A stretch of DNA of 58,612 nt, from positions 64,001 to 122,612 of IMG/VR virus record IMGVR_UViG_3300035670_000048; one strand, given 5' to 3'. The translations under genes were made by a program, and so were the position numbers. Below are positions 5,921-43,475 of the stretch, in pieces (the stretch's first letter is position 1; every line of letters begins with the position of its first letter). The notes under the pieces were generated by a model. It was given only the letters and a program-made list of their open reading frames with translations. It did not search any database and was not told the origin of the DNA. This DNA is from a virus.

Positions 5921-5940
5921 TGTAAACATAATTAAGAAAA
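5921..5940 (-). promoter_or_regulatory. Promoter-like motif A before DNA polymerase
   Basis: TTTTCTTAATTATGTTTACA on the minus strand. It overlaps the last codons and stop of the epimerase gene and lies about 15 bases before the polymerase start. Confidence 0.5.
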
Positions 5941-6954: not shown

Positions 6955-6956
6955 AT

Positions 6957-7733
6957 TTATATCATTTTTTTAAAGTAAGGGCAATATATATCTTTAGTAT
7001 CGAAATGAAAGTAAGCAGGACCAAACCACATTGATGGAGATATAACTACTTTATCTGCTTTATTATTTAACCAAGCACCCCACCAACTGAATGTACTGTT
7101 TGCTATAATATTATGATTACATAAAGATTGAATACACATATCTACTGGAGATATCTTGTTTGTAAATACTATATTATCTTGTTGGAAATTTTCTTTACAC
7201 CATTCAATATCATCCGAACTTACAATGAATATAGTGTCATTACCATCGAATTCACTCATTGCTTTTTTATAATAAGACAACGGAATGATTGGATGATGAT
7301 TTTGGACTGCTAAGTAATCTGTTCGTCTAATATGAACTGATACTAATTGTTTATTTTGGTAAGGTAATAAAAATTCTTTTGCTTCCTGAATATATTGATC
7401 TTTAAATGTAAAATGATCTCTAATTAAGTCTTCGCAATGCATGAAATATTTTTCGGTTTGGAAATAACCTTCAAAATTAGTACGATCTGATACGTTAAAT
7501 ACTTTTCTATCAAAATGAAAGAATTGTTCATGATATGTTTCAGTATTAATATCACGTTCATTAAAGAAATGGATATCCTTAATTGAAAAATATTTAAATA
7601 CATCTACTTGATCTTTTCCTTCAGGAAATATTATATCATAATTAGTTTTAGCTTTTATACCTGCTAATAAGGCGTATTGAAACATTTGATTACCTAAGCG
7701 ACCATGTTCTCCAATTTTTCTAAAGGTTATCAT
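6957..7733 (-). CDS. Glycosyltransferase family 11 (alpha-1,2-fucosyltransferase-like)
   Basis: 258 aa. Family marks: GRLGNQMFQYA near the N-terminus, VSVHIRRTDYL in the centre (GDP-sugar binding), and ANSTFSWWGAWLN near the C-terminus. GT11 enzymes use GDP-beta-L-fucose to build alpha-1,2 linkages; GDP-L-galactose from the neighbouring epimerase has the same stereochemistry and is a possible donor (inference). Its start overlaps the stop of the upstream GT25-type gene by 4 bases. Shorter than many bacterial GT11 proteins (~290 aa) but all motifs are there. Confidence 0.9.
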   Translation of the reverse strand: MITFRKIGEHGRLGNQMFQYALLAGIKAKTNYDIIFPEGKDQVDVFKYFSIKDIHFFNERDINTETYHEQFFHFDRKVFNVSDRTNFEGYFQTEKYFMHCEDLIRDHFTFKDQYIQEAKEFLLPYQNKQLVSVHIRRTDYLAVQNHHPIIPLSYYKKAMSEFDGNDTIFIVSSDDIEWCKENFQQDNIVFTNKISPVDMCIQSLCNHNIIANSTFSWWGAWLNNKADKVVISPSMWFGPAYFHFDTKDIYCPYFKKMI

Positions 7734-10431: not shown

Positions 10432-11354
10432 TATAAATAATTTAAATCTGGACGGCCTGTTCTTGCTCTGTCGGTTATAACTTTTTCTTTAAAATCTACT
10501 CCAGCGTATTGTTCGTATTGTTTTAAAGTACGTTCATTACCTAAACCATAAATCCCCATTTCGATTTCATTGGTTTCTAATAATATACTTTCTAAACGTT
10601 TTAAACTATAATCCATTAACTGCCCTACTTGCTTGTAGTGGTCATCACTGAATACTTTTCTGAATCCACGATCGTGTTTATGGTAAATCATGTTTTCAGT
10701 TGTTGCATAATGATCCCATCCGTGAGTGAATGATCTAACAGCCAATGTTATTTCTTCACCTAAAAAGAATAAATCTGGATCGTATTGTACATCTTTTATC
10801 CACTGAGAATGGCCAAATAAATTACATGCTGTAAGGAATGTATTTAATTCTGGTGATTCGGATTGATCTCTAACTTCATACATTTGGAGTAATATACTGC
10901 CATAAAAGTGATTAGCTACAGATACAGCCATTTTATTTGGATCTCCATGCCAATCTAAATTATCGGATGGTGGGTTCCATTGTGACGCAGCACACGATAG
11001 AATTGATTTAGGATTTGAAGTTTGATTATACATTTTGATTAACTTCTCATCCCAATTTTTAGTTGCAGTAATATGTGAATCAATTAGCCAAAAGTATTTT
11101 TCATCATCCCATAATTGAAATGCTAAATTTCTAGCCCAACACGCTCCCTTACTTTGTACAGCAGGTACACGAATAATTTTTACTTGGTCTTTATCGAATG
11201 GTAATTCTTTTGGTTCTTCATCTCCGTATTGCCAACAAAGCCCAATAACAACGTTATCGGGATTTGCTGCGTTTTTTAATACATTATCAATAGTATATGG
11301 AAGTAATGGGTCCCTATACGATGATACATTTACGAATATTTTATCGTTTTGCAT
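10431..11354 (-). CDS. Glycosyltransferase, GlcNAc (PF11397) family, copy 2
   Basis: 307 aa paralogue of the next gene on the message. Same blocks in the same order: VNVSSYRDPLLPYTIDNVL, SKGACWARNLA, FWLIDSHITATKNWDEKLI, FFLGEEITLAVRSFTHGWDHY and a closing YGLGNERTLKQYEQYAGVDF that copy 1 also carries. It lacks copy 1's C-terminal extension. The pair probably arose by tandem duplication and may add two successive sugars. Its start lies 14 bases inside the preceding MazG-like gene. Confidence 0.88.
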   Translation of the reverse strand: MQNDKIFVNVSSYRDPLLPYTIDNVLKNAANPDNVVIGLCWQYGDEEPKELPFDKDQVKIIRVPAVQSKGACWARNLAFQLWDDEKYFWLIDSHITATKNWDEKLIKMYNQTSNPKSILSCAASQWNPPSDNLDWHGDPNKMAVSVANHFYGSILLQMYEVRDQSESPELNTFLTACNLFGHSQWIKDVQYDPDLFFLGEEITLAVRSFTHGWDHYATTENMIYHKHDRGFRKVFSDDHYKQVGQLMDYSLKRLESILLETNEIEMGIYGLGNERTLKQYEQYAGVDFKEKVITDRARTGRPDLNYL

Positions 11355-11847
11355 TATTTAATTCGTCTTCAGTAAAGAATTGTCTTAAATTTGGTGGAAA
11401 ATACGATAACGCTTTTTGTACTTTACGATCTTCTGAGCGATATACTACATACTTATCACCACGTTTTTCAAAATGGCAAGGACGTTGTGATGCTGCTGCT
11501 CTAAATTTAGCTGTAGCGTCTGCTTCCTCTTCAGTTGAACATGATTTAGATAGATTCGATTCCTGTACTTCATTATATGCGTCAACGAATTTATCCTTTA
11601 AACCATAGGCCATAATACCCGCTGATAATACGTACATGATATCACAAAATGCATCTAATACTTCTACGATGTCTCCTTTTTCAGCTGCTGCTTTATACTC
11701 GTCTAATTCCTCTAGAATGAAATTATAGATAAAATCACGTTCCATTTTTTCGGGAATGGTGGGAGTGTAATTATTCAGTTTACCGAATAGGAAATTGAAT
11801 TTTTCTACTTCGTTAACGAAGTGTAATTTATAACCGTTGCTTGCCAT
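11341..11847 (-). CDS. MazG-like/PRA-PH all-alpha NTP pyrophosphohydrolase
   Basis: 168 aa. The metal-binding pattern of the all-alpha NTP-PPase superfamily is visible: EELDEYKAAAEKGD followed by VEVLDAFCDIMYVLSAGI (EExxE and DxxD). A second segment, AYNEVQESNLSKSCSTEEEA, and the basic KFRAA..Y.V.R region are typical of the phage version. Such enzymes hydrolyse (d)NTPs to NMPs and PPi; in phages the role may be pool cleaning, dNTP recycling or modifying ppGpp-like signalling. It heads the glycosyltransferase operon. Confidence 0.85.
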   Translation of the reverse strand: MASNGYKLHFVNEVEKFNFLFGKLNNYTPTIPEKMERDFIYNFILEELDEYKAAAEKGDIVEVLDAFCDIMYVLSAGIMAYGLKDKFVDAYNEVQESNLSKSCSTEEEADATAKFRAAASQRPCHFEKRGDKYVVYRSEDRKVQKALSYFPPNLRQFFTEDELNNAKR

Positions 11848-12396: not shown

Positions 12397-13107
12397 TTAG
12401 CTATATGCTTGTAGATTTAATTTTAACATTTCTAATACTTCTTGTTTAGCTGTCTTTTGGTGATCAGCAAATACACCTGATACTTCTGATGTTACCATTG
12501 AAGCTCCCATATGCTTAACTCCACGACACGATACACAGTTGTGTGTTGCGTGCATCATTACCATAATACCTTCATTACCTTCAATTAAATTATTCATAGC
12601 ATTATGAATAGCCATAGTTAATTGTTCTTGAATAGCACCTCTACGTGAGAAATGTTCAACTACACGATTTAATTTTGATAATCCGATTACCTTTGATTCA
12701 GGACCTGGCACATATGCAATATGACATTTACCTAAGATCGTTTGGTGGTGGTGAGAACACATCGAAATTACTGGGATATCGCGCTCTAATACAATACCGT
12801 TGTAACCATCTGATGGGAATGCTGTAACATCACCTAATACTTCATAACGTCCACGCCATAAATCATTAACGTATGCTTTAGCAACACGTTTTGGTGTGTC
12901 AGATGAGTTTGGATCATTACGCCAATCAACGCCTAATGCGTCTAAGAATTGACCATATGCTTTAGTTGCATTGGTAATGACTGCTTGTTTTTCCTCTACA
13001 GTCAGAGAGCGTTCTTTACCTTCGGTTTCGATGATTTGTTGCAAATGTAATGAGATACCATTTGCATTACCTGAATTGGTAATTTCTAAATTGCTAATTT
13101 CGCACAT
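12397..13107 (-). CDS. folE: GTP cyclohydrolase I
   Basis: 236 aa. The zinc ligands are in place: MCSHHH (C117, H120) and, later, NCVSCRGV; between them GKCHIAYVPGPESKVIGLSKL and the RR.QIQEQL-like helix. It converts GTP to dihydroneopterin triphosphate, the first step towards queuosine precursors (and folate). Since QueD, QueE, QueC and a DpdA-like transglycosylase are also encoded here and no other folate gene is seen, its likely job is feeding 7-deazaguanine synthesis for DNA modification. The first ~35 residues are extra relative to a minimal FolE. Confidence 0.95.
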   Translation of the reverse strand: MCEISNLEITNSGNANGISLHLQQIIETEGKERSLTVEEKQAVITNATKAYGQFLDALGVDWRNDPNSSDTPKRVAKAYVNDLWRGRYEVLGDVTAFPSDGYNGIVLERDIPVISMCSHHHQTILGKCHIAYVPGPESKVIGLSKLNRVVEHFSRRGAIQEQLTMAIHNAMNNLIEGNEGIMVMMHATHNCVSCRGVKHMGASMVTSEVSGVFADHQKTAKQEVLEMLKLNLQAYS

Positions 13108-21792: not shown

Positions 21793-21807
21793 AGTAATAA
21801 ATTTTGG

Positions 21808-21879
21808 AGGGAATGGAGAATTACGATATCTCGACCTGACGATTAACAGTCGTCTGCTCTGCCTCTGAGCTACAAACCC
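21808..21879 (-). tRNA. tRNA-Asn (GTT), divergent
   Basis: Anticodon arm GACGA-CTGTTAA-TCGTC is clear and the D-arm is normal. The acceptor stem (GGGTTTG/CATTCCC) has T-T mismatches at 4:69 and 5:68, and the T-loop is ATCGTAA rather than TTCRANY. Either decayed or dependent on unusual processing. Confidence 0.6.
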
Positions 21880-21888
21880 TTATAAATG

Positions 21889-21959
21889 TTATCCGAGCTG
21901 GATTCGAACCAACCCTAAACGCACCAAAAACGTTTGTGCTACCGCTACACCATCGGACA
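21889..21959 (-). tRNA. tRNA-Gln (TTG)
   Basis: Acceptor TGTCCGA/TCGGATA, anticodon arm AACGT-TTTTGGT-GCGTT, T-arm GTTGG-TTCGAAT-CCAGC. Complete cloverleaf. Confidence 0.85.
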
Positions 21960-21964
21960 ATATG

Positions 21965-22036
21965 AGCAGGTAGTCAGATTCGAACTGACGTCTCCGGTTT
22001 GGAAGACCAGAGCACTAACCACTGTGCTATACCTGC
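21965..22036 (-). tRNA. tRNA-Gly (TCC)
   Basis: Acceptor GCAGGTA/TACCTGC, anticodon arm CTGGT-CTTCCAA-ACCGG, T-arm GTCAG-TTCGAAT-CTGAC. Complete cloverleaf. Confidence 0.93.
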
Positions 22037-22041
22037 TTATG

Positions 22042-22113
22042 AGCTCTCATCCGGAATCGAACCGAATTATCCAGATTACAAATCTGGCGCATCGCCTGCA
22101 ATGCTTTGAGAGC
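22042..22113 (-). tRNA. tRNA-Thr (TGT)
   Basis: Acceptor GCTCTCA/TGAGAGC, anticodon arm CCAGA-TTTGTAA-TCTGG, normal D- and T-arms. The next ~52 bases upstream (22114-22165) hold no gene, only a 6-bp stem GAGGGA/TCCCTC. Confidence 0.93.
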
Positions 22114-22165
22114 ATAGAGAGGGACAGGTTATTTATTCCTTTTCGGGACTCCCTCAGACCCATCG

Positions 22166-22237
22166 TATCAACATCAAGATTCGAACTTGAAATAAAGCCT
22201 TATGAGAGCTCTGTGATCACCATTTCACTATGTTGAC
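22166..22237 (-). tRNA. tRNA-Met or tRNA-Ile2 (CAT), first copy
   Basis: Acceptor GTCAACA/TGTTGAT (G-T at 1:72), anticodon loop CTCATAA, T-arm TCAAG-TTCGAAT-CTTGA. No GGG/CCC anticodon-stem triplet, so not a classic initiator; elongator Met or lysidine-type Ile. Confidence 0.85.
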
Positions 22238-22246
22238 ATTTATTCG

Positions 22247-22318
22247 TAGCAGGGACCAGAATCGAACTGGCGTAGACCTGGCTTATGAGACCGGTGGGCG
22301 ACCAACAACCTCCCTGCT
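22247..22318 (-). tRNA. tRNA-Met or tRNA-Ile2 (CAT), second copy
   Basis: Acceptor AGCAGGG/CCCTGCT, anticodon loop CTCATAA on a stem with one C-A mismatch, T-arm GCCAG-TTCGATT-CTGGT. D-arm is irregular. The two CAT tRNAs differ widely and probably serve Met and AUA-Ile. Confidence 0.8.
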
Positions 22319-22331
22319 ACCAATAATTAAG

Positions 22332-22403
22332 TACCCCCAACGGGATTCGAACCCGTGACTCATCCGTGAAAGGGATGTGACTTAACCGCTTGTCGATAGG
22401 GGC
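22332..22403 (-). tRNA. tRNA-Glu (TTC)
   Basis: Acceptor GCCCCTA/TGGGGGT, anticodon arm CATCC-CTTTCAC-GGATG, T-arm ACGGG-TTCGAAT-CCCGT. First tRNA after the RNase H-fold gene on the message. Confidence 0.93.
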
Positions 22404-22416
22404 GTTTATTTCTTAC

Positions 22417-22434
22417 TATAATATAATTAAGAAA
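22417..22434 (-). promoter_or_regulatory. Promoter-like motif A before the second half of the tRNA array
   Basis: TTTCTTAATTATATTATA on the minus strand, 14 bases upstream of tRNA-Glu and 10 bases after the stop of the preceding gene. Confidence 0.55.
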
Positions 22435-22444
22435 TATTCATTAC

Positions 22445-22903
22445 CTACATTTTTACTAAATTATCTGCAGCATAAGTCATCATAGGTGAATGTCCTTTAT
22501 GTCTTACTGTATAGCCCATTCCTGTTACAATACCCACAGCACTTGTTAATGCTTGGTTTGATCGGTATTTTGGATCTGGATTTAAGTCAATATCAATAAA
22601 TTTAGCTCTAATATCTAATTCTGTTCTAATTTGTTCTGCTACTTCGACTGAAAACCAAACTTCGTTGATTAATCGAGTAACGTGTTCTTTTTCTCTAGGT
22701 ACTTCGAACTTAGTATAAAGAACGTGGGCACCTTTTTTAGGAGTATATAAACCGATTACAATAGCGTAAAACGTTTCTTTTTTCCTATTCTGTGAATCAC
22801 ACCCAATTAATAATTCTAAATCGGGATGTGTCTGCTTGTACTCGTTAATGTAGCCAATCAACTCAATCGGAGTTTTATTAGCCAGTGTTTTGAATTTTCT
22901 CAT
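22445..22903 (-). CDS. RNase H-fold nuclease-like protein, DUF458/YkuK family
   Basis: 152 aa from the ATG at 22903; a reading from 22930 would begin inside tRNA-Leu. Blocks seen: LLIGCDSQNR (first acidic position), FYAIVIGLYTPKKGAHVLYT, EVWFSVEVAEQI, KFIDIDLNPDPKYRSNQALTSAVG (second acid, DxN) and a final HKGHSPMMTYAADNLVK. These match the RNase H-like DUF458 family, whose biochemical role is unproven. It splits the tRNA array, as homing genes do, but has no homing-endonuclease features; a role in tRNA or RNA processing is only a guess. Confidence 0.82.
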   Translation of the reverse strand: MRKFKTLANKTPIELIGYINEYKQTHPDLELLIGCDSQNRKKETFYAIVIGLYTPKKGAHVLYTKFEVPREKEHVTRLINEVWFSVEVAEQIRTELDIRAKFIDIDLNPDPKYRSNQALTSAVGIVTGMGYTVRHKGHSPMMTYAADNLVKM

Positions 22904-22922
22904 ATCCCATTTATTTAAATTG

Positions 22923-23005
22923 TGCACCAAGCAGGAATCGAACCTGCACTCCCTACGGGAATAGCATTTTAAGTGCTACGGGTCTACCTATTCCCCCATT
23001 GGCGC
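22923..23005 (-). tRNA. tRNA-Leu (TAA)
   Basis: Class II. Acceptor GCGCCAA/TTGGTGC, anticodon arm TAGCA-CTTAAAA-TGCTA, long variable arm TTCCCGTAGGGAG, T-arm normal. Confidence 0.94.
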
Positions 23006-23013
23006 GTTTACAG

Positions 23014-23103
23014 TAGAGAGTGAGGGACTCGAACCCTCGCACCGGTTTTATCCGATCTACCTCGTTAGCAATGAGGCCCCTTCACCAACTTGGGTAACTC
23101 TCT
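23014..23103 (-). tRNA. tRNA-Ser (GCT)
   Basis: Class II, 90 bases. Acceptor AGAGAGT/ACTCTCT, anticodon loop TTGCTAA, long variable arm, T-arm GAGGG-TTCGAGT-CCCTC. The 57 bases upstream (23104-23160) contain a small imperfect stem CCTC.AA/TTGAGG and no gene. Confidence 0.92.
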
Positions 23104-23160
23104 ATAAGGGCCCGATACCTCAACTCTCACCTGCTCGAGCCGACACAGGATTGGAGGATG

Positions 23161-23248
23161 AAGAGGGTGTGAGATTCGAACTCACGGATCGCTTTCACGA
23201 TCGCTGGTTTTCAAGACCAGTCCAATAATCCATCTCTGGCAACCCTCC
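23161..23248 (-). tRNA. tRNA-Ser (TGA)
   Basis: Class II. Acceptor GGAGGGT/ACCCTCT, anticodon arm CTGGT-CTTGAAA-ACCAG, variable arm CGATCGTGAAAGCGATC, T-arm GTGAG-TTCGAAT-CTCAC. Confidence 0.94.
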
Positions 23249-23256
23249 TTATAATT

Positions 23257-23331
23257 GCGGTACTGACGGGGATCGAACCCGCTCCAAACTCCGTGACAGG
23301 GAGATATCTTAACCATTTGACCTCAGCACCG
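23257..23331 (-). tRNA. tRNA-Asp (GTC)
   Basis: Acceptor CGGTGCT/AGTACCG, anticodon loop CTGTCAC on a CTCC/GGAG stem, T-arm GCGGG-TTCGATC-CCCGT. Confidence 0.9.
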
Positions 23332-23333
23332 TA

Positions 23334-23353
23334 TTAAATATAATTTGGAAATC
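23334..23353 (-). promoter_or_regulatory. Promoter-like motif A inside the tRNA array
   Basis: GATTTCCAAATTATATTTAA on the minus strand between tRNA-His and tRNA-Asp. Same core TTTCC.AATTATATTTA as the gene-associated copies. A 6-bp hairpin GGAAAT/ATTTCC overlaps it. Confidence 0.5.
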
Positions 23354-23370
23354 TTATATTTCCGTATTGG

Positions 23371-23442
23371 TGTGATTGAAGAGAATCGAACTCTTATTTA
23401 AGGCACCACAAACCTTAGTCTTAACCATTAGACCACAATCAC
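23371..23442 (-). tRNA. tRNA-His (GTG)
   Basis: Acceptor GTGATTG/CAATCAC with a G at the -1 position, anticodon arm AAGGT-TTGTGGT-GCCTT, T-arm AAGAG-TTCGATT-CTCTT. Confidence 0.92.
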
Positions 23443-23444
23443 CG

Positions 23445-23518
23445 AGGTCAATACAGGATTCGAACCTGTGATCGGGCTTTTGCAGAGCCCAGCCTTAAAC
23501 CAACTTGGCTAATCGACC
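23445..23518 (-). tRNA. tRNA-Cys (GCA)
   Basis: Acceptor GGTCGAT/ATTGACC, anticodon arm GGGCT-CTGCAAA-AGCCC, T-arm ACAGG-TTCGAAT-CCTGT. Confidence 0.93.
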
Positions 23519-23528
23519 TTATTAAATG

Positions 23529-23600
23529 TACTCTCTTAGAGACTCGAACTCCAATCTCTTCATCCGTAGTGAAGTGTTCTATCCATTGAACTAAAAGAGC
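23529..23600 (-). tRNA. tRNA-Arg (ACG)
   Basis: Acceptor GCTCTTT/AGAGAGT (G-T at two positions), anticodon arm CTTCA-CTACGGA-TGAAG, T-arm TGGAG-TTCGAGT-CTCTA. A34 would need deamination to inosine by the host enzyme. Confidence 0.9.
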
Positions 23601-23606
23601 AAATCG

Positions 23607-23677
23607 CACAAATGCAAGGATTCGAACCCTGAACAACGCTTTTGGAGAGCGGTATGATACCATTTCACCACAAATGT
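23607..23677 (-). tRNA. tRNA-Trp (CCA), acceptor stem mismatched
   Basis: Anticodon loop CTCCAAA on a CGCT/AGCG stem, T-arm CAGGG-TTCGAAT-CCTTG. Acceptor ACATTTG/CATTTGT has T-T at 4:69 and 5:68, exactly as in tRNA-Asn of this array. Confidence 0.75.
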
Positions 23678-23683
23678 GTATTA

Positions 23684-23756
23684 GAAGTAACATCCTGAGC
23701 TCCTCAGGTATCGCGCCGCTTATTGGAATAATTCCATCTGCTGTCCATATTACTTC
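23684..23756 (-). other. tRNA-sized structured element without tRNA arms
   Basis: 73 bases closed by a perfect 7-bp stem (GAAGTAA/TTACTTC), placed between tRNA-Ile and tRNA-Trp at normal array spacing. Inside are two hairpins, GGAA-TTA-TTCC and CCTGAG-GAG-CTCAGG. There is no D-arm, anticodon arm or TTCRANY loop. Length and end-stem match a tRNA acceptor, so it may be cut out by tRNA-processing enzymes. Not a ribozyme class I can recognise. Confidence 0.5.
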
Positions 23757-23758
23757 TG

Positions 23759-23832
23759 TAGGAATAACAGAATTCGAATCTGTAACCTTCTGCGTATCAG
23801 GCAGATGCTCTAACCAGTTGAGCTATATTCCT
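23759..23832 (-). tRNA. tRNA-Ile (GAT)
   Basis: Acceptor AGGAATA/TATTCCT, anticodon arm TCTGC-CTGATAC-GCAGA, T-arm ACAGA-TTCGAAT-TCTGT. Confidence 0.94.
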
Positions 23833-23838
23833 ATATGG

Positions 23839-23914
23839 TCGGGTGAGCAGGATTCGAACCTGCGTGCTCTCGCGTCCAAGGCGAGCGAGATAAACCTGAC
23901 TCCTCTACCACCCG
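23839..23914 (-). tRNA. tRNA-Pro (TGG)
   Basis: Acceptor CGGGTGG/TCACCCG, anticodon arm CTCGC-CTTGGAC-GCGAG, T-arm GCAGG-TTCGAAT-CCTGC. Followed by an encoded CCA (23836-23838), unusual in this array. The 48-base spacer upstream (23915-23962) contains only a short CG-rich stem. Confidence 0.92.
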
Positions 23915-23962
23915 TTGATCGGCTCCGATTTTTATATAGAACGTTGCCGAAGTAAACTATTG

Positions 23963-24036
23963 TGACCCCGATGCGACTCGAACGCATAACCCCTACATTA
24001 AAAGTGTAGTGCTCTGACCAATTGAGCTACGGAGTC
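23963..24036 (-). tRNA. tRNA-Lys (TTT)
   Basis: Acceptor GACTCCG/CGGGGTC, anticodon arm CTACA-CTTTTAA-TGTAG, T-arm ATGCG-TTCGAGT-CGCAT. Confidence 0.94.
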
Positions 24037-24039
24037 GTT

Positions 24040-24118
24040 TAGGAGATGTTTTGCCCGTTATTACTACCGGGGTAGCTTCTGGCTCCCCAGGTCGGATTCG
24101 AACCGACATTTTCTCCTA
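24040..24118 (-). other. tRNA-like element with a 7-bp end stem and a 5'-placed T-arm
   Basis: 79 bases closed by TAGGAGA/TCTCCTA. A perfect T-arm (GTCGG-TTCGAAT-CCGAC, 24091-24107) lies near the 5' end, where a D-arm would be, followed by CTGGGG/CCCCGG with a 12-base loop. No anticodon arm. It sits between tRNA-Phe and tRNA-Lys at normal spacing. It could be a decayed or rearranged tRNA, or an RNA that uses a T-arm to engage tRNA-processing enzymes. Confidence 0.5.
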
Positions 24119-24121
24119 TAG

Positions 24122-24194
24122 TGGGAAAGATTGGTTTCGAACCAATTCCTCTGGATTTTCAGTCCAGCGCTTCTACCAAGTTAGCTTCATCCCC
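24122..24194 (-). tRNA. tRNA-Phe (GAA)
   Basis: Acceptor GGGGATG/CTTTCCC with one T-T mismatch (6:67), anticodon arm CTGGA-CTGAAAA-TCCAG, T-arm ATTGG-TTCGAAA-CCAAT. Confidence 0.9.
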
Positions 24195-24202
24195 AATTAA
24201 AT

Positions 24203-24284
24203 GTGCCTGCAGATGGACTCGAACCACCGAACCCGAAGGAGAGCGTTTACAGCGCCCCGCAATTGCCGCTATGCGATACAGGCA
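24203..24284 (-). tRNA. tRNA-Tyr (GTA)
   Basis: Class II. Acceptor TGCCTGT/GCAGGCA, anticodon arm GGGCG-CTGTAAA-CGCTC, variable arm with TCCTTCGGGT, T-arm GGTGG-TTCGAGT-CCATC. Confidence 0.92.
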
Positions 24285-24292
24285 TGTTACTG

Positions 24293-24365
24293 TACTCTAT
24301 ACAGGACTCGAACCTGTAATAACTGGAGTCTAAGGCCAGTGTGTCTTCCGTTCCACCAATAGAGC
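24293..24365 (-). tRNA. tRNA with anticodon TAG (Leu), class I shape
   Basis: Acceptor GCTCTAT/ATAGAGT, anticodon loop CTTAGAC on CTGG/CCAG, T-arm ACAGG-TTCGAGT-CCTGT. Reads CUA (and CUG). The variable loop is only ~4-5 bases, unlike bacterial tRNA-Leu, so aminoacid identity is not certain. Confidence 0.75.
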
Positions 24366-24371
24366 ATTATG

Positions 24372-24443
24372 TATGTCTTAAGGGAATCGAACCCCTACTG
24401 TCTCATTAGAAGTGAGGAGTTCTATCCGTTAAACTAAAGACAC
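24372..24443 (-). tRNA. tRNA-Arg (TCT)
   Basis: Acceptor GTGTCTT/AAGACAT, anticodon loop CTTCTAA on a CTCA/TGAG stem, T-arm TAGGGG-type with TTCGATT. Reads AGA/AGG. Confidence 0.92.
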
Positions 24444-24449
24444 ATATCG

Positions 24450-24521
24450 TACATTCTGAGGGATTCGAACCCCCAACCTCTGCCATGTAAAGACAGCACT
24501 CTGCCATTGAGTTAAGAATGC
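24450..24521 (-). tRNA. tRNA-Val (TAC)
   Basis: Acceptor GCATTCT/AGAATGT, anticodon arm CTGTC-TTTACAT-GGCAG, T-arm TGGGGG-type with TTCGAAT. Confidence 0.93.
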
Positions 24522-24552
24522 ATTTTGCCAATAAATCAAAGAACAACTACTG

Positions 24553-24624
24553 TGGACAAGATGGGATTCGAACCCACATCCTCTTCATTGCAAATGAAGC
24601 GCTCAGCCGTTGAGCTACGAGCCC
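24553..24624 (-). tRNA. tRNA-Ala (TGC), acceptor stem mismatched
   Basis: First tRNA of the array. Anticodon arm CTTCA-TTTGCAA-TGAAG, T-arm GTGGG-TTCGAAT-CCCAT. Acceptor GGGCTCG/CTTGTCC has T-T at 5:68 and C-T at 6:67. Confidence 0.85.
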
Positions 24625-28387: not shown

Positions 28388-29170
28388 TTACACACCTCTT
28401 TGGTCTGCGTAAGCTATAATGTGGTCTCTACCTGAGAAATTATATGCATTTTTCGTGCAGAAATCTAATACCATAGGATAAGTACGAATTAATTCATCGC
28501 GTGAATCTCCTGGAGGCATCAGCCACGTTTTGTGTTTTGGTATATTAAAACGCTTACGGAATGATTCAACTTCAGCCCATATTTCCGGTTGTTCTACTGG
28601 ATTTACTACGGGTTTGAAGTGATAGTTCTTGTGGTATGCTAGTAATTGACGAATTGCATCGTATTTTCCTCTAAATTTATTATGTTGATCGATAAATTTC
28701 TGATCAACGATTTTCTCAGTATTAATAATTTTAGTACCTAATACTGGAACCGAATTAGAGAATTTAGGCGATAATGAAATAACATCAATGCGGTGATCTG
28801 TAATTAGTGGATGTGATCCTTCAGTCTCCATCGTTACAATACCTTTCTTAGCATGTAATGCTTTAAATAGATTGATAATCTCATTACATAATTCAGGATG
28901 CATCGTTGGTGATCCACCAGTTAACATCAAGTGATTGATATCCCAGTTATCGGCAAAGAATTGTTTAATGTCTTGTAATGTAAATTTACCTTTTTCTGGT
29001 GTAATCGATGTATAAAATGAATCACACCATCCACCTTCACCAAAGTAACAACGGTGAGTACACCCTGTAGTACGTACAATAATGTGTGGTCTGCCGGCTA
29101 ATGAGCCTTCAGTCTGCACACATCTATACATTTCTACAATAGGCTGATTTTTAGTATAATCTAGTGCCAT
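28388..29170 (-). CDS. queE: QueE: 7-carboxy-7-deazaguanine synthase (radical SAM)
   Basis: 260 aa. The radical-SAM cysteines are C37, C41 and C49 in TTGCTHRCYFGEGGWCDS, i.e. CX3CX7C, an unusual spacing (the common one is CX3CX2C; variants exist in QueE). Next come TGGSPTMHPE (the GGEP-like SAM motif) and ETEGSHPL. The enzyme turns 6-carboxy-tetrahydropterin, the product of QueD, into 7-carboxy-7-deazaguanine, the substrate of QueC. It ends the cluster that starts with the DpdA-like gene and is close to the 77-aa gene (20-base overlap). Confidence 0.9.
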   Translation of the reverse strand: MALDYTKNQPIVEMYRCVQTEGSLAGRPHIIVRTTGCTHRCYFGEGGWCDSFYTSITPEKGKFTLQDIKQFFADNWDINHLMLTGGSPTMHPELCNEIINLFKALHAKKGIVTMETEGSHPLITDHRIDVISLSPKFSNSVPVLGTKIINTEKIVDQKFIDQHNKFRGKYDAIRQLLAYHKNYHFKPVVNPVEQPEIWAEVESFRKRFNIPKHKTWLMPPGDSRDELIRTYPMVLDFCTKNAYNFSGRDHIIAYADQRGV

Positions 29171-29384
29171 CTTGTTTTTCTTTTAGTTTTTGACGTTTAG
29201 CTAATTTTTTATCTATAACTACTTCTGCATTAATATCCACCTCAATGGTTTTCTTATTTGCATCGCGTACTTTAGTTTTCCATTCCGATTTAGGAACGAA
29301 TGACCATCCATGTACTTTTACTTTGTTATCAGCGTCTTGGTCTGATACTCTACGGATTTCATCTCCTTTTTTGATACACTTCAT
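29151..29384 (-). CDS. Small basic hypothetical protein
   Basis: 77 aa. IKKGDEIRRVSDQDADNKV followed by GWSFVPKSEWK is a pattern I recognise in small proteins of T4-like phages; the C-terminal half is lysine-rich. It overlaps queE by 20 bases. Function unknown. Confidence 0.65.
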   Translation of the reverse strand: MKCIKKGDEIRRVSDQDADNKVKVHGWSFVPKSEWKTKVRDANKKTIEVDINAEVVIDKKLAKRQKLKEKQDGTRLY

Positions 29385-29385
29385 A

Positions 29386-29592
29386 TTATTTTATTATTTT
29401 ATGTTCTATATTATTTTCAGTTAGCATTTTAGAGAATATATCAGCTAATTTTAATATATCTTCACCGTTTACTAATTCAACTTTAATAGCATTACCTTGC
29501 CAACTAAATGTTATGCTGAATGGAGTTGGGGTTAATGTAATTATTGGTTGTAAGTCTGTTGTTAATTTAAAATTATCATTTGTATCTTCCAT
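29386..29592 (-). CDS. Small hypothetical protein
   Basis: 68 aa; beta-rich N-terminal half (LQPIITLTPTPFSITFSWQG) and an amphipathic C-terminal helix (ILKLADIFSKMLTENN). Close-packed with genes on either side (1-base gaps). Not recognised. Confidence 0.55.
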   Translation of the reverse strand: MEDTNDNFKLTTDLQPIITLTPTPFSITFSWQGNAIKVELVNGEDILKLADIFSKMLTENNIEHKIIK

Positions 29593-29593
29593 A

Positions 29594-29845
29594 TTATTTT
29601 ATTCTATATTGTAATGATGACATTCCACCGTTTACTCTTCTTGTTACTTTTAAAATTTGTTTCGGATTTAATACACCCATTCCAACATTACCACTAGATG
29701 TTATTCGCATACGTTCATATGGATGTGGATATCCTATACCTTCAAATCCAGTAGAAGTAATTCTAAGTGGTGATGATTTTGATTCGGGTATAAATGCAGC
29801 ACCTACTAATACACCTAATGATTTGATAAAGCTACTACGTTTCAT
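29594..29845 (-). CDS. Small protein with Tat-like N-terminus and a tail-fibre-like repeat
   Basis: 83 aa. The N-terminus (MKRSSFIKSLGVLVGAAF) looks like a twin-arginine-type export signal, though only one Arg is present. It then contains two near-copies of ITSTG/ITSSGNVGMG, a phrase common in phage tail-fibre and peptidase S74-linked proteins (RITSSGNVGIG). It is not itself long enough for a fibre. Start overlaps the stop of the upstream 45-aa gene (ATGA). Confidence 0.6.
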   Translation of the reverse strand: MKRSSFIKSLGVLVGAAFIPESKSSPLRITSTGFEGIGYPHPYERMRITSSGNVGMGVLNPKQILKVTRRVNGGMSSLQYRIK

Positions 29846-29979
29846 TTGAATTTTAATTTAATTACTTGTTGAATGTAAGTAAGAAAGTGCAAATCACCAG
29901 CAAGTAATGTTAAAATGTTAGGGTGGGCGTCTCCACACCCACCTAACAAATGACTAATAATGTGTCTAATTTCCTCCAT
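29842..29979 (-). CDS. Small hypothetical protein
   Basis: 45 aa, MEEIRHIISHLLGGCGDAHP then a hydrophobic half (ILTLLAGDLHFLTYIQQVI). Supported by the leader AAAATAAGTT in front, an ATGA overlap with the following gene, and lack of any other gene in this 137-base gap. A stem GTTAGG.TGGG/CCCACCTAAC within the coding sequence could be a structured RNA or a coincidence. Confidence 0.55.
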   Translation of the reverse strand: MEEIRHIISHLLGGCGDAHPNILTLLAGDLHFLTYIQQVIKLKFK

Positions 29980-29982
29980 AAC

Positions 29983-30438
29983 TTATTTTAAGTATTCTTC
30001 TAATGTAATGTTATTTTGTTTTTCTAAATGGTGGAATTCTCTATGACAATTTGAACATAAAGGAATGCATTTTTTAATTTCTTTAAAAGTATCTTCTATA
30101 GATTTGTACTGCCATGCATTACCTATTGCTATAGATTTAGTGGTTGGATCAATGTGATGAAAATCTAAAAGATAATATCTAGTTTCTTTACATTTAGAAC
30201 AGCATAATGTTTGTTTATATTCATTTACTGTTTCTTTGTATTTTCGTTTGAATTCTTTTTGATATTCTCTCCATTGATCCTTATTCTTATTATAATTAGC
30301 TTTAGTAGTTTCTCTTACACATGCTTTACAATAATATTCCCACCCATCTTTTTTACTTTTTCTGTGATGCCAAAATTCTTTAGTTAATGGTTTATCACTA
30401 TTACACTTAGTACAATGTTTTGTTTCCATGATTATCAT
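29983..30438 (-). CDS. HNH homing endonuclease-like protein
   Basis: 151 aa (ATG at 30429 is an equally possible start). First a zinc-finger-like CTKC...CKAC region, then a lysine-rich linker, then a second C-x2-C (CCSKC) and the HNH core LLDFHHIDP ... CIPLCSNCHREFHH. The His-Asn-His layout is intact. Free-standing endonucleases of this type spread into phage genomes. It is inserted in the queuosine cluster between queE's small neighbours and queC, and a motif B copy is directly upstream. Confidence 0.88.
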   Translation of the reverse strand: MIIMETKHCTKCNSDKPLTKEFWHHRKSKKDGWEYYCKACVRETTKANYNKNKDQWREYQKEFKRKYKETVNEYKQTLCCSKCKETRYYLLDFHHIDPTTKSIAIGNAWQYKSIEDTFKEIKKCIPLCSNCHREFHHLEKQNNITLEEYLK

Positions 30439-30439
30439 T

Positions 30440-30454
30440 TATAATAAATATGTG
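30440..30454 (-). promoter_or_regulatory. Promoter-like motif B before the HNH gene
   Basis: ACATATTTATTATAA on the minus strand, immediately upstream of the HNH start. Confidence 0.35.
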
Positions 30455-30481
30455 ACAATCTTAGAAGAATAATGGTCGCTA

Positions 30482-31288
30482 TTATTTATTTTTCCATTCC
30501 TCCAAAACACTTTCAGCATGTGCTTTAGCAACATCCCAACTAACAGGACCCGTCTCATCTTCGTACTGAACAGGATCAGGGCGTCCTAATCGAATAAAAG
30601 CTTCAATTCGTTCTACTGATGCTGCTGATTTGTAATCACTGTTTCCTGAAGGATAGGGTTTGTAAGAAGTATTTGTACGTTTATATACTTTATCAAAATC
30701 TAATCCTAATGCTTCACATGATACTAAACCATCTTCTAGAATATCATACTTCATAACTTCTAAATATGGAGTATAATATGTTACTAATTCAGAATCCCAA
30801 TTCCCAACTTTAAAAGCATGTAAATCAGCATCGCGAAATTCAGCTCTGCAGTCGGGGTAAACACTCTCATCTCCTTTATGAATACCCATCGCGATTGCTA
30901 CTTCTTGCTTATCGCCTTTGGTTGCAACTGACAATGCTGCTGCTTGAATCAATGAAGCAAAAATTTTATTACGATTAGGTACAACAGTTTCTTTCATGTT
31001 GTCTTGTTCGTAATGTCCTTCTGGTACATCGTTTCCACCTGTAACTAATGCTGAATGGAGTAAGTTCTGCAATCCATCTAATTTAATAATTTGATGTGTT
31101 ACTGGTTGTCCTTTACTTTGTAGATAATCAACTAATGAAGCGGCACGTTCTAATTCAACACGGTGTTTTTGGCCGTAATCGAATCCTAATGCTGTAACTT
31201 CATAGCCATTAGCTAATAAGTGAAGTAATAATGTTGAGGAATCCATTCCTCCGGATAGTGATAAAACTGCTTTTTTTGTACTAGACAT
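30482..31288 (-). CDS. queC: QueC-like: 7-cyano-7-deazaguanine synthase without zinc cysteines
   Basis: 268 aa. N-terminal PP-loop LSLSGGMDSSTLL (about residues 11-22) and FDYGQKH are intact, as are VPNRN and the adenylation-domain end. In bacterial QueC the C-terminal end has C..C..C..C (typically WSCY ... CGKCDSC) binding zinc; here the equivalent stretch reads RTNTSYKPYPSGNSDYKSAASVERIEAF, with no cysteine. QueC turns 7-carboxy-7-deazaguanine into preQ0 with ATP and ammonia. The change suggests a diverged, possibly structurally rewired phage form, or altered substrate. Confidence 0.88.
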   Translation of the reverse strand: MSSTKKAVLSLSGGMDSSTLLLHLLANGYEVTALGFDYGQKHRVELERAASLVDYLQSKGQPVTHQIIKLDGLQNLLHSALVTGGNDVPEGHYEQDNMKETVVPNRNKIFASLIQAAALSVATKGDKQEVAIAMGIHKGDESVYPDCRAEFRDADLHAFKVGNWDSELVTYYTPYLEVMKYDILEDGLVSCEALGLDFDKVYKRTNTSYKPYPSGNSDYKSAASVERIEAFIRLGRPDPVQYEDETGPVSWDVAKAHAESVLEEWKNK

Positions 31289-31326
31289 AATATTATAAAA
31301 TATAAGATTGGAACGTATTAGTTTAT

Positions 31327-31530
31327 TTATCGATTAGTTCCGATAACCGATTTTATTTTAAAGAACTCGTCTAAAAATGTTTTTTCGTATAACATAACTT
31401 TTCCAGTATATCGTGGATTAGATACATCACGAGTTTCAATTTTAGTTTTTTTAAATGCAGCATAATCAGCTACTTGTTTACCTAATTCAGCACCAGCTGC
31501 GCGACCTAAATAATCATATAATGATAACAT
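31327..31530 (-). CDS. Small hypothetical protein between queC and queD
   Basis: 67 aa. LYDYLGRAAGAELGKQVADYA is a short pattern I recall from small proteins of T4-like phages. It has the AAAATAAAAGTT leader in front and a motif A copy 21-40 bases upstream. Its function is unknown; location suggests, but does not show, a link to deazaguanine synthesis. Confidence 0.65.
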   Translation of the reverse strand: MLSLYDYLGRAAGAELGKQVADYAAFKKTKIETRDVSNPRYTGKVMLYEKTFLDEFFKIKSVIGTNR

Positions 31531-31550
31531 AACTTTTATTTTGTTTATAC

Positions 31551-31570
31551 TATAAATGTAACTAAGAAAT
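31551..31570 (-). promoter_or_regulatory. Promoter-like motif A
   Basis: ATTTCTTAGTTACATTTATA on the minus strand, right after the queD stop and before the 67-aa gene and queC. Confidence 0.5.
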
Positions 31571-32049
31571 TATAGTGCTGTATATTCTTCTTCGTATGAA
31601 GCTGAATTACGTCCGTTTTCAAATACTTCTACTTTAGCTACTCTAACTCGATAATGTGTTTCGTCTTGAACGAATTCATTGATCTTTTTAAATAGGTACT
31701 CAGCAAAACGTTCAGCACCAACACTAGGTAAAATACGTAACTGGATAATTCCGTCTTCTGCCATTTGTTTGAATTGCTCTAAATATGGATCATCTTCAGA
31801 AATGATTGTTGTGTGGTCTAATAAATAATCGAACCACTGTTTTGGATTCATTCCATCGATATTGCCGTTAGCACGTTTCATACCGCCGAAATCCCATACC
31901 CAATTGCGTTCGTCTAAATCCCCTTCGAAATCAACTTTAAAGGATACTGCATATCCATGTAAGAATCTACAGTGAGTACCTTCTGCTCTCCATTGTCTAA
32001 ATACTGTAGAAAATCCATCATATAGTTTTGATGATTTAAATGTAATCAT
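31570..32049 (-). CDS. queD: QueD: 6-carboxy-5,6,7,8-tetrahydropterin synthase
   Basis: 159 aa. Catalytic Cys and zinc His in HCRFLHGYAV (usual CxxxHGH has become CxxxHGY), a WDFGGMK motif, LLDHTTII with the catalytic Asp-His, and VEVFENGRNSASY with the substrate Glu. The HGY variant is found in other alpha-proteobacterial and phage QueDs. It converts 7,8-dihydroneopterin triphosphate, made by FolE, into the QueE substrate. Overlaps the DpdA-like gene by 4 bases (ATGA). Confidence 0.92.
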   Translation of the reverse strand: MITFKSSKLYDGFSTVFRQWRAEGTHCRFLHGYAVSFKVDFEGDLDERNWVWDFGGMKRANGNIDGMNPKQWFDYLLDHTTIISEDDPYLEQFKQMAEDGIIQLRILPSVGAERFAEYLFKKINEFVQDETHYRVRVAKVEVFENGRNSASYEEEYTAL

Positions 32050-32840
32050 GATAGTAATGATTTAAAATGTTTAACGTTATATAATACGTCAGAAACTTGT
32101 TGAGGAGTTAATCGCTGATCAAAGAATGTTTCTAACTTTTCTTTCGGTTTGTCTAATAATACTTCAGATGGATATCTACCATGTTTTAAACCATAGATAA
32201 CTGGATTTGATGTATCGATTGTTTTAATAAATTCGTATTGTTTTCCTTTGTAATTGGAAAATTCATTAGGTAATGTAGCACCTAATAAGTGGTGATGGAT
32301 ATTGCTACTAAATCCTTTTAATGACGGAAGCATATTAACGAATCTAATACGTCCATTCATTAAGCTAAGTAACTCGTTTTGATGCTGATATAATTCCTTG
32401 TAAAATACACCAGCGTGATTTAATGCAATATGTGTGTAGCCTAACTCAATAAATTTACTATATGTTAGCATAGCATCAGATACTGTTTTAGCTTGCACTA
32501 CTGCCATTAATTTCGTTGTTGAGGGAATTTTATCTGCATAGTAGTCGATCCACTTCTTAGCATTTTTAACTGTTGTTTCAGGATCATTCCAAGCATCAGG
32601 AGTAATGAATATACTTGGTTTAATATCGTTGATTTTCTCGAGTAAATCCTCGATCGTATGCGATACTCCTTCAAATAAACCATTGTCCATGATGATTAAA
32701 TCACCACGTTCTGATGCGCTTTTAAAGAATTGATGGTACTGTTCGTTTTCTAATAAATGAGGTAAGCAATAATGATAATCATTAAATTTTAACGATGCAT
32801 CTAATAGATCTAATGGTACTTCATGTGAAATAAGGGCCAT
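32046..32840 (-). CDS. DpdA-like DNA 7-deazaguanine transglycosylase (TGT superfamily)
   Basis: 264 aa. TIM-barrel of the tRNA-guanine transglycosylase type: IIMDNGLFEGV with Asp52, ITPDAWNDPETT with Asp82, ALNHAG, and SSNIHHHLLGAT, which corresponds to the HLLG turn. Phage DpdA proteins replace guanine in DNA with preQ0 or a derivative; this protein is in the size range of phage forms and stands in the same operon as queD. It is the only transglycosylase seen. Alternative: a true tRNA transglycosylase, less likely because it lacks the zinc-binding C-terminal end. Confidence 0.83.
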   Translation of the reverse strand: MALISHEVPLDLLDASLKFNDYHYCLPHLLENEQYHQFFKSASERGDLIIMDNGLFEGVSHTIEDLLEKINDIKPSIFITPDAWNDPETTVKNAKKWIDYYADKIPSTTKLMAVVQAKTVSDAMLTYSKFIELGYTHIALNHAGVFYKELYQHQNELLSLMNGRIRFVNMLPSLKGFSSNIHHHLLGATLPNEFSNYKGKQYEFIKTIDTSNPVIYGLKHGRYPSEVLLDKPKEKLETFFDQRLTPQQVSDVLYNVKHFKSLLS

Positions 32841-32842
32841 AA

Positions 32843-33337
32843 CTATTTATTATAATTTTTTAAGTATTCGTAGAATTCAATAGTAGTACCATCGAATTCA
32901 GCTGCTAATTCATGTATTAAATCTATACGAGACAATCTATCTGGGCCCAAATGTCTGAATTCATTGGCTAGTTCTCTAACTAAGTCATCCCATAATTTGG
33001 GTTCTTCCTTATCGAATGCATTCATTAATTTGTGATAGCGGTCGTATTGTTGTTTTTCAATTACTTCACGGCGATTTAGCCATGCTTCATGAGATGGATA
33101 TTTAGAGCGTTCAGTTTTTAAACGCTCATCTAATAGCCATAATTCATAGAATGCCTGCAATCGATAATCCGATACTTCAAAATCCCCGTTTTTAATACGT
33201 GTTTCTAATAAGTTATACTTATGCATTGGTTGACGCATTTGGAATCGTCTCCAATAATAGAATACGTTAAATTTCGCTGGTTGGAATTTGTTCTCCACTA
33301 AGCTCTGAATATTGCTCGGATAACGGGACTGTTGCAT
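32843..33337 (-). CDS. Hypothetical helical protein before the DpdA-like gene
   Basis: 164 aa, rich in Arg/Tyr/Glu and almost entirely helical (YKYHKLMNAFD-type segments, ELANEFRHLG). The start at 33337 overlaps the previous gene by 71 bases; ATG at 33238 (MRQPMHKYNLLE), which follows a GGAG, is an alternative. It is 2 bases from the DpdA-like gene and may be its partner in DNA modification. Not recognised. Confidence 0.6.
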   Translation of the reverse strand: MQQSRYPSNIQSLVENKFQPAKFNVFYYWRRFQMRQPMHKYNLLETRIKNGDFEVSDYRLQAFYELWLLDERLKTERSKYPSHEAWLNRREVIEKQQYDRYHKLMNAFDKEEPKLWDDLVRELANEFRHLGPDRLSRIDLIHELAAEFDGTTIEFYEYLKNYNK

Positions 33338-33467
33338 TGTCTAATGTTGTTAAAACCTTTTCAGCGAGGGCAGTAACTGCTGCCTCTCGCTGGTCTTCCG
33401 GTAATTGATTTAGTGCCTCTACTTCACTTTTTAGAGTATATAGATCATTAAGTAATTCCTTTAACAT
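33267..33467 (-). CDS. Small coiled-coil protein
   Basis: 66 aa. Acidic, leucine-heptad helix (LLNDLYTLKSEVEALNQL) and a polar tail. First gene of the deazaguanine cluster after the GIY-YIG endonuclease, with motif A at its upstream edge. Not recognised. Confidence 0.55.
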   Translation of the reverse strand: MLKELLNDLYTLKSEVEALNQLPEDQREAAVTALAEKVLTTLDNATVPLSEQYSELSGEQIPTSEI

Positions 33468-33468
33468 A

Positions 33469-33487
33469 GTAAATTTAATTAAGACAT
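33469..33487 (-). promoter_or_regulatory. Promoter-like motif A before the deazaguanine cluster
   Basis: ATGTCTTAATTAAATTTAC on the minus strand; overlaps the end of the GIY-YIG gene and touches the start of the 66-aa gene. Confidence 0.45.
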
Positions 33488-34093
33488 TTTATTTTTGTAT
33501 TTAAATTTATATCCTCTAACTTGAGTGATAGGAGTACCACTTCTATTTATGAAGTTATTCAATACATTCCATATCATTTCTTTTCTTACTCCTACAAATT
33601 CAGCTGCTTGTTGTTGATTGGGAAACTCTGTAATGTATTTTCCATCTAAATCATACATTAAAATAGGACAACGAGGAGCGTTTTTTATTTTTTCTTTAAA
33701 TTCATCTGTTGATTGCCATTTTACTCGTTTTTTCCCGAAATCAGCTGGTTTTGGTTTATTTTTTAAAGCAGATGATATTTTTTGTTTGGATTGGGAAGTG
33801 TGGGAACCAGGCCCACACCCTCCTCTATTATCATTAAGACCATTTATATTACTTTGGTAATAATTAATCCAGTATCTCTCTCGTTCTCGTAATAATTTAT
33901 TATCATTTATAACTTCTTCTATGACTTCAAATATATGATCTTCATGTTTATATTTATCTAATGATAATTTAAATGTAGAAGTTTTATTCATTCCCGATTT
34001 ACTTCTATAAGATTTCCATCTTAATTCTATATTCTTAGATAAACCGATATATATTTTACCTTCGGGATTTGTTATTTTATATATTCCAACCAT
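33479..34093 (-). CDS. GIY-YIG homing endonuclease
   Basis: 204 aa. GIY-YIG domain at the N-terminus (VGIYKITNPEGKIYIGLSKNIELRW; later ERYWINYYQS with the catalytic Glu) followed by NUMOD-type DNA-binding modules (SQSKQKISSALK; PILMYDLDGKYITEFPNQQQAAEFVGV). A free-standing mobile gene lying between nrdA and the deazaguanine cluster. Motif B (34111-34124) precedes it. Confidence 0.92.
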   Translation of the reverse strand: MVGIYKITNPEGKIYIGLSKNIELRWKSYRSKSGMNKTSTFKLSLDKYKHEDHIFEVIEEVINDNKLLRERERYWINYYQSNINGLNDNRGGCGPGSHTSQSKQKISSALKNKPKPADFGKKRVKWQSTDEFKEKIKNAPRCPILMYDLDGKYITEFPNQQQAAEFVGVRKEMIWNVLNNFINRSGTPITQVRGYKFKYKNKMS

Positions 34094-42141: not shown

Positions 42142-42986
42142 TATTGAAATAATTCGTCGAATTTATCTGATGAGTTTGTATTCAAAGAGAACGCAGCACG
42201 TTCTTGTTCTGTTACTTGGTTTTCATTTACCCAATCTGATTGAGCAGCCGGAGCAGCAGGAGCAGCTTCAGTTGTAGTTGCTGTAGTTGTTGTTTGCTCT
42301 GCTTCAGCATCTGGATTTAGCCATTTAGCTAATAATTCTTTAATGTCGTTGTATTCGCGTTTGCGATTAATCGTCATAATATCTGGTTGTTCTTCTAACC
42401 ATTTATTTACTAGATTAGCATCATCAGAAATTGGAGATGATTTTGGACGAGGACGTAATGTACAGCTAACTACCTTACGGCCAGCTACTTCAGAATTTAC
42501 GGCATCGATTTTAAAATCGAATCCATCTTGGATATCAGTGAAATCACCGTAATCCTCATCAGCAGCAAATCCTAGTAATGATTTGTATACTTCCTTACCG
42601 AATTCCCATAAACGAACACCTAAATGTTCTTCACCACGAACGATAACAGGAACAAATACACGCATTTTTGGATCTAACTTCTTAGCTAATGCCCAGTTGT
42701 CGCGATCTTTTGATTGACGTAATTTTGCTGCAAATTCCATAATTGGATCTGCTTCACCCCAGTTGTTTAAAGCCAATACTGGTCCTTTAGCGAATCCATA
42801 GTGGAAATATACCTCGCGGAATGGGTTTTGTTTATTGAATTTTGATGGTACGATGCGAATCGTATGATTACCTACTTGAGGCTTCCAGAACACTTTCGTG
42901 TAGTCGATTTTTTCGTAAGTCTTACCTCCCGATTTCTGTGGAGCGTTAAGATTACCTAATTTTTGCTTTAACAAAGCTAAATCCAT
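42141..42986 (-). CDS. Single-stranded DNA-binding protein, T4 gp32-like
   Basis: 281 aa. FWKPQVGNHTIRIVPSKFNKQNPFREVYFHYGF and the following RVFVPVIVRGEEHLGVRLWEFGKEVY are the OB-fold signature of phage gp32-type proteins. A middle acidic/Ala/Thr linker (QTTTTATTTEAAPAAPAAQ) and an acidic tail (DKFDELFQ) that would bind replication partners. Unlike T4 gp32, no zinc-binding Cys cluster is visible. Confidence 0.88.
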   Translation of the reverse strand: MDLALLKQKLGNLNAPQKSGGKTYEKIDYTKVFWKPQVGNHTIRIVPSKFNKQNPFREVYFHYGFAKGPVLALNNWGEADPIMEFAAKLRQSKDRDNWALAKKLDPKMRVFVPVIVRGEEHLGVRLWEFGKEVYKSLLGFAADEDYGDFTDIQDGFDFKIDAVNSEVAGRKVVSCTLRPRPKSSPISDDANLVNKWLEEQPDIMTINRKREYNDIKELLAKWLNPDAEAEQTTTTATTTEAAPAAPAAQSDWVNENQVTEQERAAFSLNTNSSDKFDELFQ

Positions 42987-43020
42987 AATATAACTATTTA
43001 AGTTTTAAAAATTGTACTCG

Positions 43021-43040
43021 GTAAATGTAATTGAGAAATC
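43021..43040 (-). promoter_or_regulatory. Promoter-like motif A before SSB/recombinase
   Basis: GATTTCTCAATTACATTTAC on the minus strand, ending 35 bases upstream of the SSB start, directly after the previous stop. Confidence 0.55.
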
Positions 43041-43475
43041 CTACAGATTAATTATCTTGTGGATTTTAGTTTTGATGATATTTAAATCATTGCTTTGGAT
43101 CAACAATATTGAATTCTTGTAATCGATCCAGTTAATTCTGTAGTTGGTGTCTAATACACCATTGTTCAAAGACTTGATTAATGCATTTAGTGCATTTATT
43201 GTATATAACGTATTTGACTCTTTCTTACGATGCAGCAATATCGTATTAGGTAGCACGGATTGTTGCTCCATATTGAATGTATCGATATTATACGTGCAAA
43301 CATACTCTTCAGTAGACAACGATTCTAATACAAATATCTTAGAATATAAAATAGTGTATTTGGTCTGTAAAGTATTTAGAGTATTGTCTAATTCTTCAGG
43401 AGCCGTGAATGTACAGAATAGCTTATTCGCCATTAAAAACGTGCTGTTAAATAAATCGTAACTTAAGTCTGCCAT
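43041..43475 (-). CDS. Hypothetical protein between SSB and the family-A-like polymerase
   Basis: 144 aa. Alternating strands; VLPNTILLHRKKESNTLYTINALNALI and INWIDYKNSILLI are the best candidates for a family pattern, which I half-recognise from T4-like phages without a function. The start codon adjoins a TATATTTATG sequence (motif B-like). Confidence 0.65.
   Translation of the reverse strand: MADLSYDLFNSTFLMANKLFCTFTAPEELDNTLNTLQTKYTILYSKIFVLESLSTEEYVCTYNIDTFNMEQQSVLPNTILLHRKKESNTLYTINALNALIKSLNNGVLDTNYRINWIDYKNSILLIQSNDLNIIKTKIHKIINL

Follow-up and report, generated by a model that had tools for sequence, protein, structure and literature searches.

Does a phage that encodes both the synthesis of preQ0 and a candidate enzyme for inserting it exchange this base for guanine in its own DNA, a swap known from other phages as a kind of anti-restriction system? 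The stretch of DNA that raises this question (the window, 58,612 nucleotides) comprises bases 64001–122612 of a 122,612-base virus record that is possibly incomplete and that contains phage-type genes, including those for a tail sheath, a DNA polymerase, and homing endonucleases; the host is probably a member of the Bacteroidota. An earlier note on this DNA had reported genes for QueE, QueC, QueD, and a transglycosylase lying together, with FolE at about 12.4 kb, and we confirmed all five at these places by Pfam or PHROG matches or, for the transglycosylase, by fold and homology. Specifically, the minus strand encodes QueE, a radical-SAM 7-carboxy-7-deazaguanine synthase (260 aa, 28388–29170; phrog_2076, 4e-42), a variant QueC (268 aa, 30482–31288; PF06508, 2e-39), a variant QueD (159 aa, 31570–32049; phrog_2389, 3e-40), a DpdA-type guanine transglycosylase (264 aa, 32046–32840) whose gene overlaps that of QueD by 4 bases, and FolE, a GTP cyclohydrolase I (12397–13107; PF01227, 5e-45). 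A MazG-like nucleotide pyrophosphohydrolase, a probable accessory, is encoded on the same strand near FolE (11341–11847), as it is in Flavobacterium phage vB_FspM_immuto_2-6A (immuto) and in two related loci (L118 and L121); FolE and MazG lie 15–20 kb from the cluster in the window and close to it in these three. We note that a block of glycosyltransferase and epimerase genes is also found near FolE (5932–11354), and that mobile genes flank or interrupt the cluster, namely an HNH-like ORF between QueE and QueC (29983–30438; recognized by eye, with no Pfam match) and a gene for a GIY-YIG-type homing endonuclease upstream of the cluster (33479–34093).

FolE, QueD, QueE, and QueC together make up the full pathway from GTP to preQ0, and the DpdA-type transglycosylase would remove guanine from the phage DNA and put preQ0 there. 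The product, which would be 2'-deoxy-7-cyano-7-deazaguanosine (dPreQ0), would probably take the place of a large fraction of the Gs; such replacement should block many restriction enzymes. We think it likely that preQ0 is both synthesized by the phage and swapped for guanine in the phage DNA. The suggestion of the earlier note that the DNA carries preQ0 or a derivative is supported by the complete pathway, by the TGT/DpdA fold and catalytic residues of the transglycosylase, and by kinship to Campylobacter phage CP220, with the chemistry of the DNA itself being predicted.

We assigned the transglycosylase because of its fold and its homology to phage proteins, one of which is annotated as DpdA. 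The protein has no Pfam or NCBIfam match, its PHROG matches are two families that are both of unknown function, and sequence searches against solved structures, with the single sequence and with a profile, returned nothing relevant; the fold search alone found matches. An AlphaFold2 model made with 40 of the IMG/VR relatives as input (mean pLDDT 94.5, pTM 0.91) shows the TGT-like barrel of the DpdA/TGT superfamily when compared with the PDB by Foldseek: the 50 matches listed comprise 49 tRNA-guanine transglycosylases (best 1.4e-9) and a single DpdA (7UI4, 8.6e-9). Residues D52, N53, D82, Q116, H184, G187, and D209 are invariant in 85 transglycosylase sequences, distant isolates included, with D52, D82, Q116, and D209 covering the two catalytic aspartates and the base-pocket glutamine. 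In order and context the invariant residues appear to fit the TGT motifs DSGG, FDE, VQG, MGVG, and FDCVxPTR, a mapping made by motif order that has partial hhalign support (the profile gave weak matches to the single sequences of E. coli Tgt and CAjan DpdA) and that leans on the fold match. The predicted structure thus supports a TGT/DpdA fold with the catalytic residues kept. This fold is shared with the bacterial and phage DpdA proteins that exchange guanine in DNA (7UI4; phages 9g and CAjan), from which the transglycosylase studied here differs in being smaller and not detectable by plain sequence search.

A tblastn search of 50,697 phage records found the transglycosylase in 23 of them (14 Campylobacter, 5 Cellulophaga, and 4 Flavobacterium phages) at 24–33% identity over the whole length; the CP220 and immuto proteins are 32–34% identical across 98% of the length, and a Flavobacterium phage copy is annotated as a DNA guanine transglycosylase. 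Full-length homology to the proteins of CP220 and Cellulophaga phage phiST, seen by tblastn and in the alignment, places the protein in a CP220/immuto/phiST subgroup that is presumably the DpdA3 of the literature; Cui et al. in 2023 reportedly assigned the insertion enzyme of CP220 and of phage CPt10 to the DpdA3 subfamily. Chryseobacterium phage MA9V-3 has a more distant copy, and a profile scan of IMG/VR found at least 440 viral stretches that encode a relative. One short contig from a Spirochaetia MAG (L173) carries a transglycosylase (34%), a QueF-like gene, and a cysteine-keeping QueC.

In the DNA of CP220 and CPt10, 100% of dG is replaced by dADG (PMC8306585), and in 2019 the insertion enzyme of these phages had yet to be identified, a route through nucleotides having been suggested (PMC6884629). 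These Campylobacter phages have a 33% identical transglycosylase together with QueC and QueD, as here, but their genes are scattered, their QueC keeps its zinc motif, and their DNA is fully dADG. From the DNA chemistry of CP220 we infer that DNA would also be the substrate of the transglycosylase of the window. An alternative is that the phage boosts the supply of preQ0 for queuosine in its 23 tRNAs, with the transglycosylase acting on tRNA. Indeed, the window contains an array of 23 tRNA genes (21805–24624) that includes all four GUN anticodons (Asn, Asp, His, and Tyr), the transglycosylase has a TGT fold, and cells use the QueC and QueD variants described below, apparently for queuosine. This alternative nevertheless seems improbable, given that the nearest characterized phages of the transglycosylase carry modified DNA, that the protein has 264 aa as compared to 375 for E. 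coli Tgt, and that, extending what the earlier note had stated for the window, the whole 122,612-base record yields no QueF above the cut-off (the weak QueF match being FolE) and no Pfam match to the TGT family.

The operon, far beyond chance, recurs in 84 uncultured viral loci, usually in the order QueD, transglycosylase, p67 (a 67-aa protein; minus strand, 31327–31530), QueC, QueE, and FolE, and often downstream of genes for a DnaB-like helicase and ribonucleotide reductase (RNR). In these loci, which were selected by the transglycosylase and many of which are truncated where the contig or the flank stops, we found QueC in 74, QueD in 60, p67 in 53, QueE in 51, FolE in 34, and homologs of a 164-aa gene in 28. 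The gene neighborhood bears on a second alternative, namely that preQ0 is converted to dNTPs by a phosphoribosyltransferase, MazG, and the phage RNR and is then inserted by the polymerase. The record encodes an HGPRT-like protein outside the window (record bases 42774–43310), phosphoribosyltransferase genes lie beside FolE in relatives, MazG is near FolE, and the RNR genes adjoin the cluster here as in relatives. The phosphoribosyltransferases and MazG also fit salvage of displaced guanine and control of the nucleotide pool, however, and the transglycosylase occupies the center of the cluster in 84 of 84 loci, though it was the basis on which the loci were selected; we therefore regard insertion at the nucleotide level as a remote prospect and continue with exchange by the transglycosylase.

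Among isolates, immuto encodes counterparts with identities of 62% for FolE, 61% for QueD, 58% for QueC, 52% for QueE, 59% for MazG, 57% for p67, and 34% for the transglycosylase, and its QueC likewise lacks the zinc cysteines. Immuto has QueF and a formyltransferase-like gene, neither of which was found in this record, and for this reason it probably carries a derivative of preQ1 as its base. Phage phiST encodes QueD, QueE, FolE, and a MazG-like protein near a transglycosylase of 24% identity; no QueC was found in it, so that it is expected to carry another base.

The QueC of the window, whose best fold match is QueC 2pg3, lacks all four of the zinc cysteines (C188, C197, C200, and C203) in an alignment with E. 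coli QueC, and these are missing in 71 of 71 relatives with an intact C-terminus. We compared the protein with the catalytic signature given in PMC13329287, in which the zinc motif is treated as a QueC hallmark. The catalytic motifs SGGxDS, YxQxHxxE, VPxRN, and YPDC are present in the window QueC and in 71–74 of the 74 relatives, and the equivalent of Y189, the tyrosine beside the first zinc cysteine, is kept. These motifs are common to canonical QueC (PF06508 cluster 1 of PMC13329287), whereas the C(x)8CxxCxxC zinc motif occurs in none of the 74 relatives. One relative (L009:2581–3615) has a long in-frame insertion with respect to the window QueC. In QueD, F and Y replace H16 and H33 (in 60 and 61 of 64 sequences) and H31 is kept, which means that two of the three histidines that we take to be the zinc ligands of E. 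coli QueD are lost; equivalents of the catalytic Cys27, the Asp-His pair (DH motif), and Glu110 are retained. QueE has its three radical-SAM cysteines spaced as Cx3Cx7C instead of the usual way. FolE keeps its Cys-His-Cys zinc site (37 of 37 aligned), and we accordingly rejected the idea of a fully zinc-free pathway.

Zinc-less QueC is also found in planctomycete, marine archaeal, and gammaproteobacterial contigs, specifically in Pirellulaceae, in Poseidoniales and marine group III archaea, and in Cysteiniphilum-type gammaproteobacteria (L116–L172). In the gammaproteobacteria it is adjoined by the F/Y form of QueD, and four genomes, that of Fangia among them, each have a single full-length match to QueC, a single match to PTPS, and a QueF. 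The F/Y residues of QueD were inspected in Cysteiniphilum, Facilibium, and a Thiotrichales genome; in these three the variants are the only full-length QueC and the only PTPS found, and QueF is present. The QueC and QueD variants probably work, because no other copies were found in some gammaproteobacteria in which QueF is present as well, and the simplest reading of these sequences is that they probably make preQ0. Both variants look undescribed in the literature that we surveyed.

Neither a formyltransferase nor a DUF6884 protein of the type found in relatives was detected in the virus record and, with QueF missing as well, dPreQ0 is the simplest product predicted; from its genes, it is the likeliest end product of the phage. 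The end product may differ from dPreQ0, since CP220 carries the amide and not the nitrile. Pathway and DNA exchange would then be the same and the base would be the amide (dADG), formed either when the variant QueC goes no further than its 7-amido intermediate or when an unrecognized phage or host enzyme hydrates the nitrile. We hold this to be rather unlikely, though CP220 and CPt10 provide a precedent and a DUF6884 (DpdC-like) gene is present in 8 of the 84 related loci, between the helicase and RNR genes (for example at L069:3610–4098); DpdC, of the DUF6884 family, is needed for dADG formation in Salmonella. Set against these points, DUF6884 is a broad family of which the record lacks the relatives' type, and the dADG of CP220 does not stem from zinc loss, since the QueC of that phage has the motif. 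Moreover, cells whose single full-length QueC is the zinc-less form also have QueF, an enzyme that requires preQ0. On these grounds we dropped the version in which QueC stops at the amide through zinc loss. We infer that the base would be preQ0 rather than its amide, and the extent of replacement and any protection are likewise predictions.

The small genes of the cluster had been proposed as candidates for accessory or tailoring steps. Only the 67-aa gene lies inside the coordinates that the earlier note gave for the cluster (28388–32840); the 164-aa gene (32843–33337), directly upstream of the transglycosylase gene with 2 bases between them, and the 66-aa ORF that overlaps it (33267–33467) are on the minus strand just outside (32843–33467). 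None of the three proteins matches a known enzyme, which gives no support to a role in tailoring. The 67-aa protein recurs with QueC and the 164-aa protein has homologs in related loci; the 66-aa ORF is seen in near relatives only and is probably not part of the pathway. p67 has no Pfam match and accompanies zinc-less QueC in many uncultured phages: QueC lies within 3 kb at 59 of the best 80 p67 loci. A search of ten p67 loci without a nearby QueC found one elsewhere in the record in 2 and none in the other 8, which are incomplete contigs. We rejected a strict pairing of p67 with QueC because the best 80 loci include ones that have no QueC nearby. In one group (L225–L234), p67 homologs occur in another gene context, with neither QueC nor the transglycosylase nearby.

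Because base exchange must release guanine, we also considered guanine recycling. In addition to the HGPRT-like protein, a different, xanthine/guanine-type phosphoribosyltransferase is encoded at most three genes downstream of FolE in 15 of the 28 loci with enough sequence. This enzyme occurs in 13 of 50,697 phage records, comprising all nine Flavobacterium and Cellulophaga phages with the transglycosylase and four distant records. It is suggestive only that guanine phosphoribosyltransferases recycle the displaced guanine, as the nine records come from few lineages. A joint reading that we put forward tentatively, as one that may well not hold, is a distinct version of the pathway: QueD and QueC without their zinc sites would make preQ0, p67 would replace the zinc lobe or steer the product to the transglycosylase, phosphoribosyltransferases would return displaced guanine to GMP, and the resulting guanine-to-preQ0 loop would allow near-complete replacement of G.

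Four-base palindromes containing G/C are under-represented in the genome (mean z −2.8, versus −0.35 for A/T-only palindromes). Considered as support for protection, palindrome avoidance came out mildly the opposite way: it does not favor complete, long-standing protection and argues mildly against complete guanine replacement.

Taken together, our analyses extend the set of phages in which guanine replacement in DNA is expected by a large group of aquatic phages, most of them uncultured, and show that whole lineages of phages, bacteria, and archaea lack the zinc motif treated as a hallmark of QueC (PMC13329287). They provide concrete cases for testing how QueC functions without zinc and how a phage handles the guanine that is freed by base exchange.
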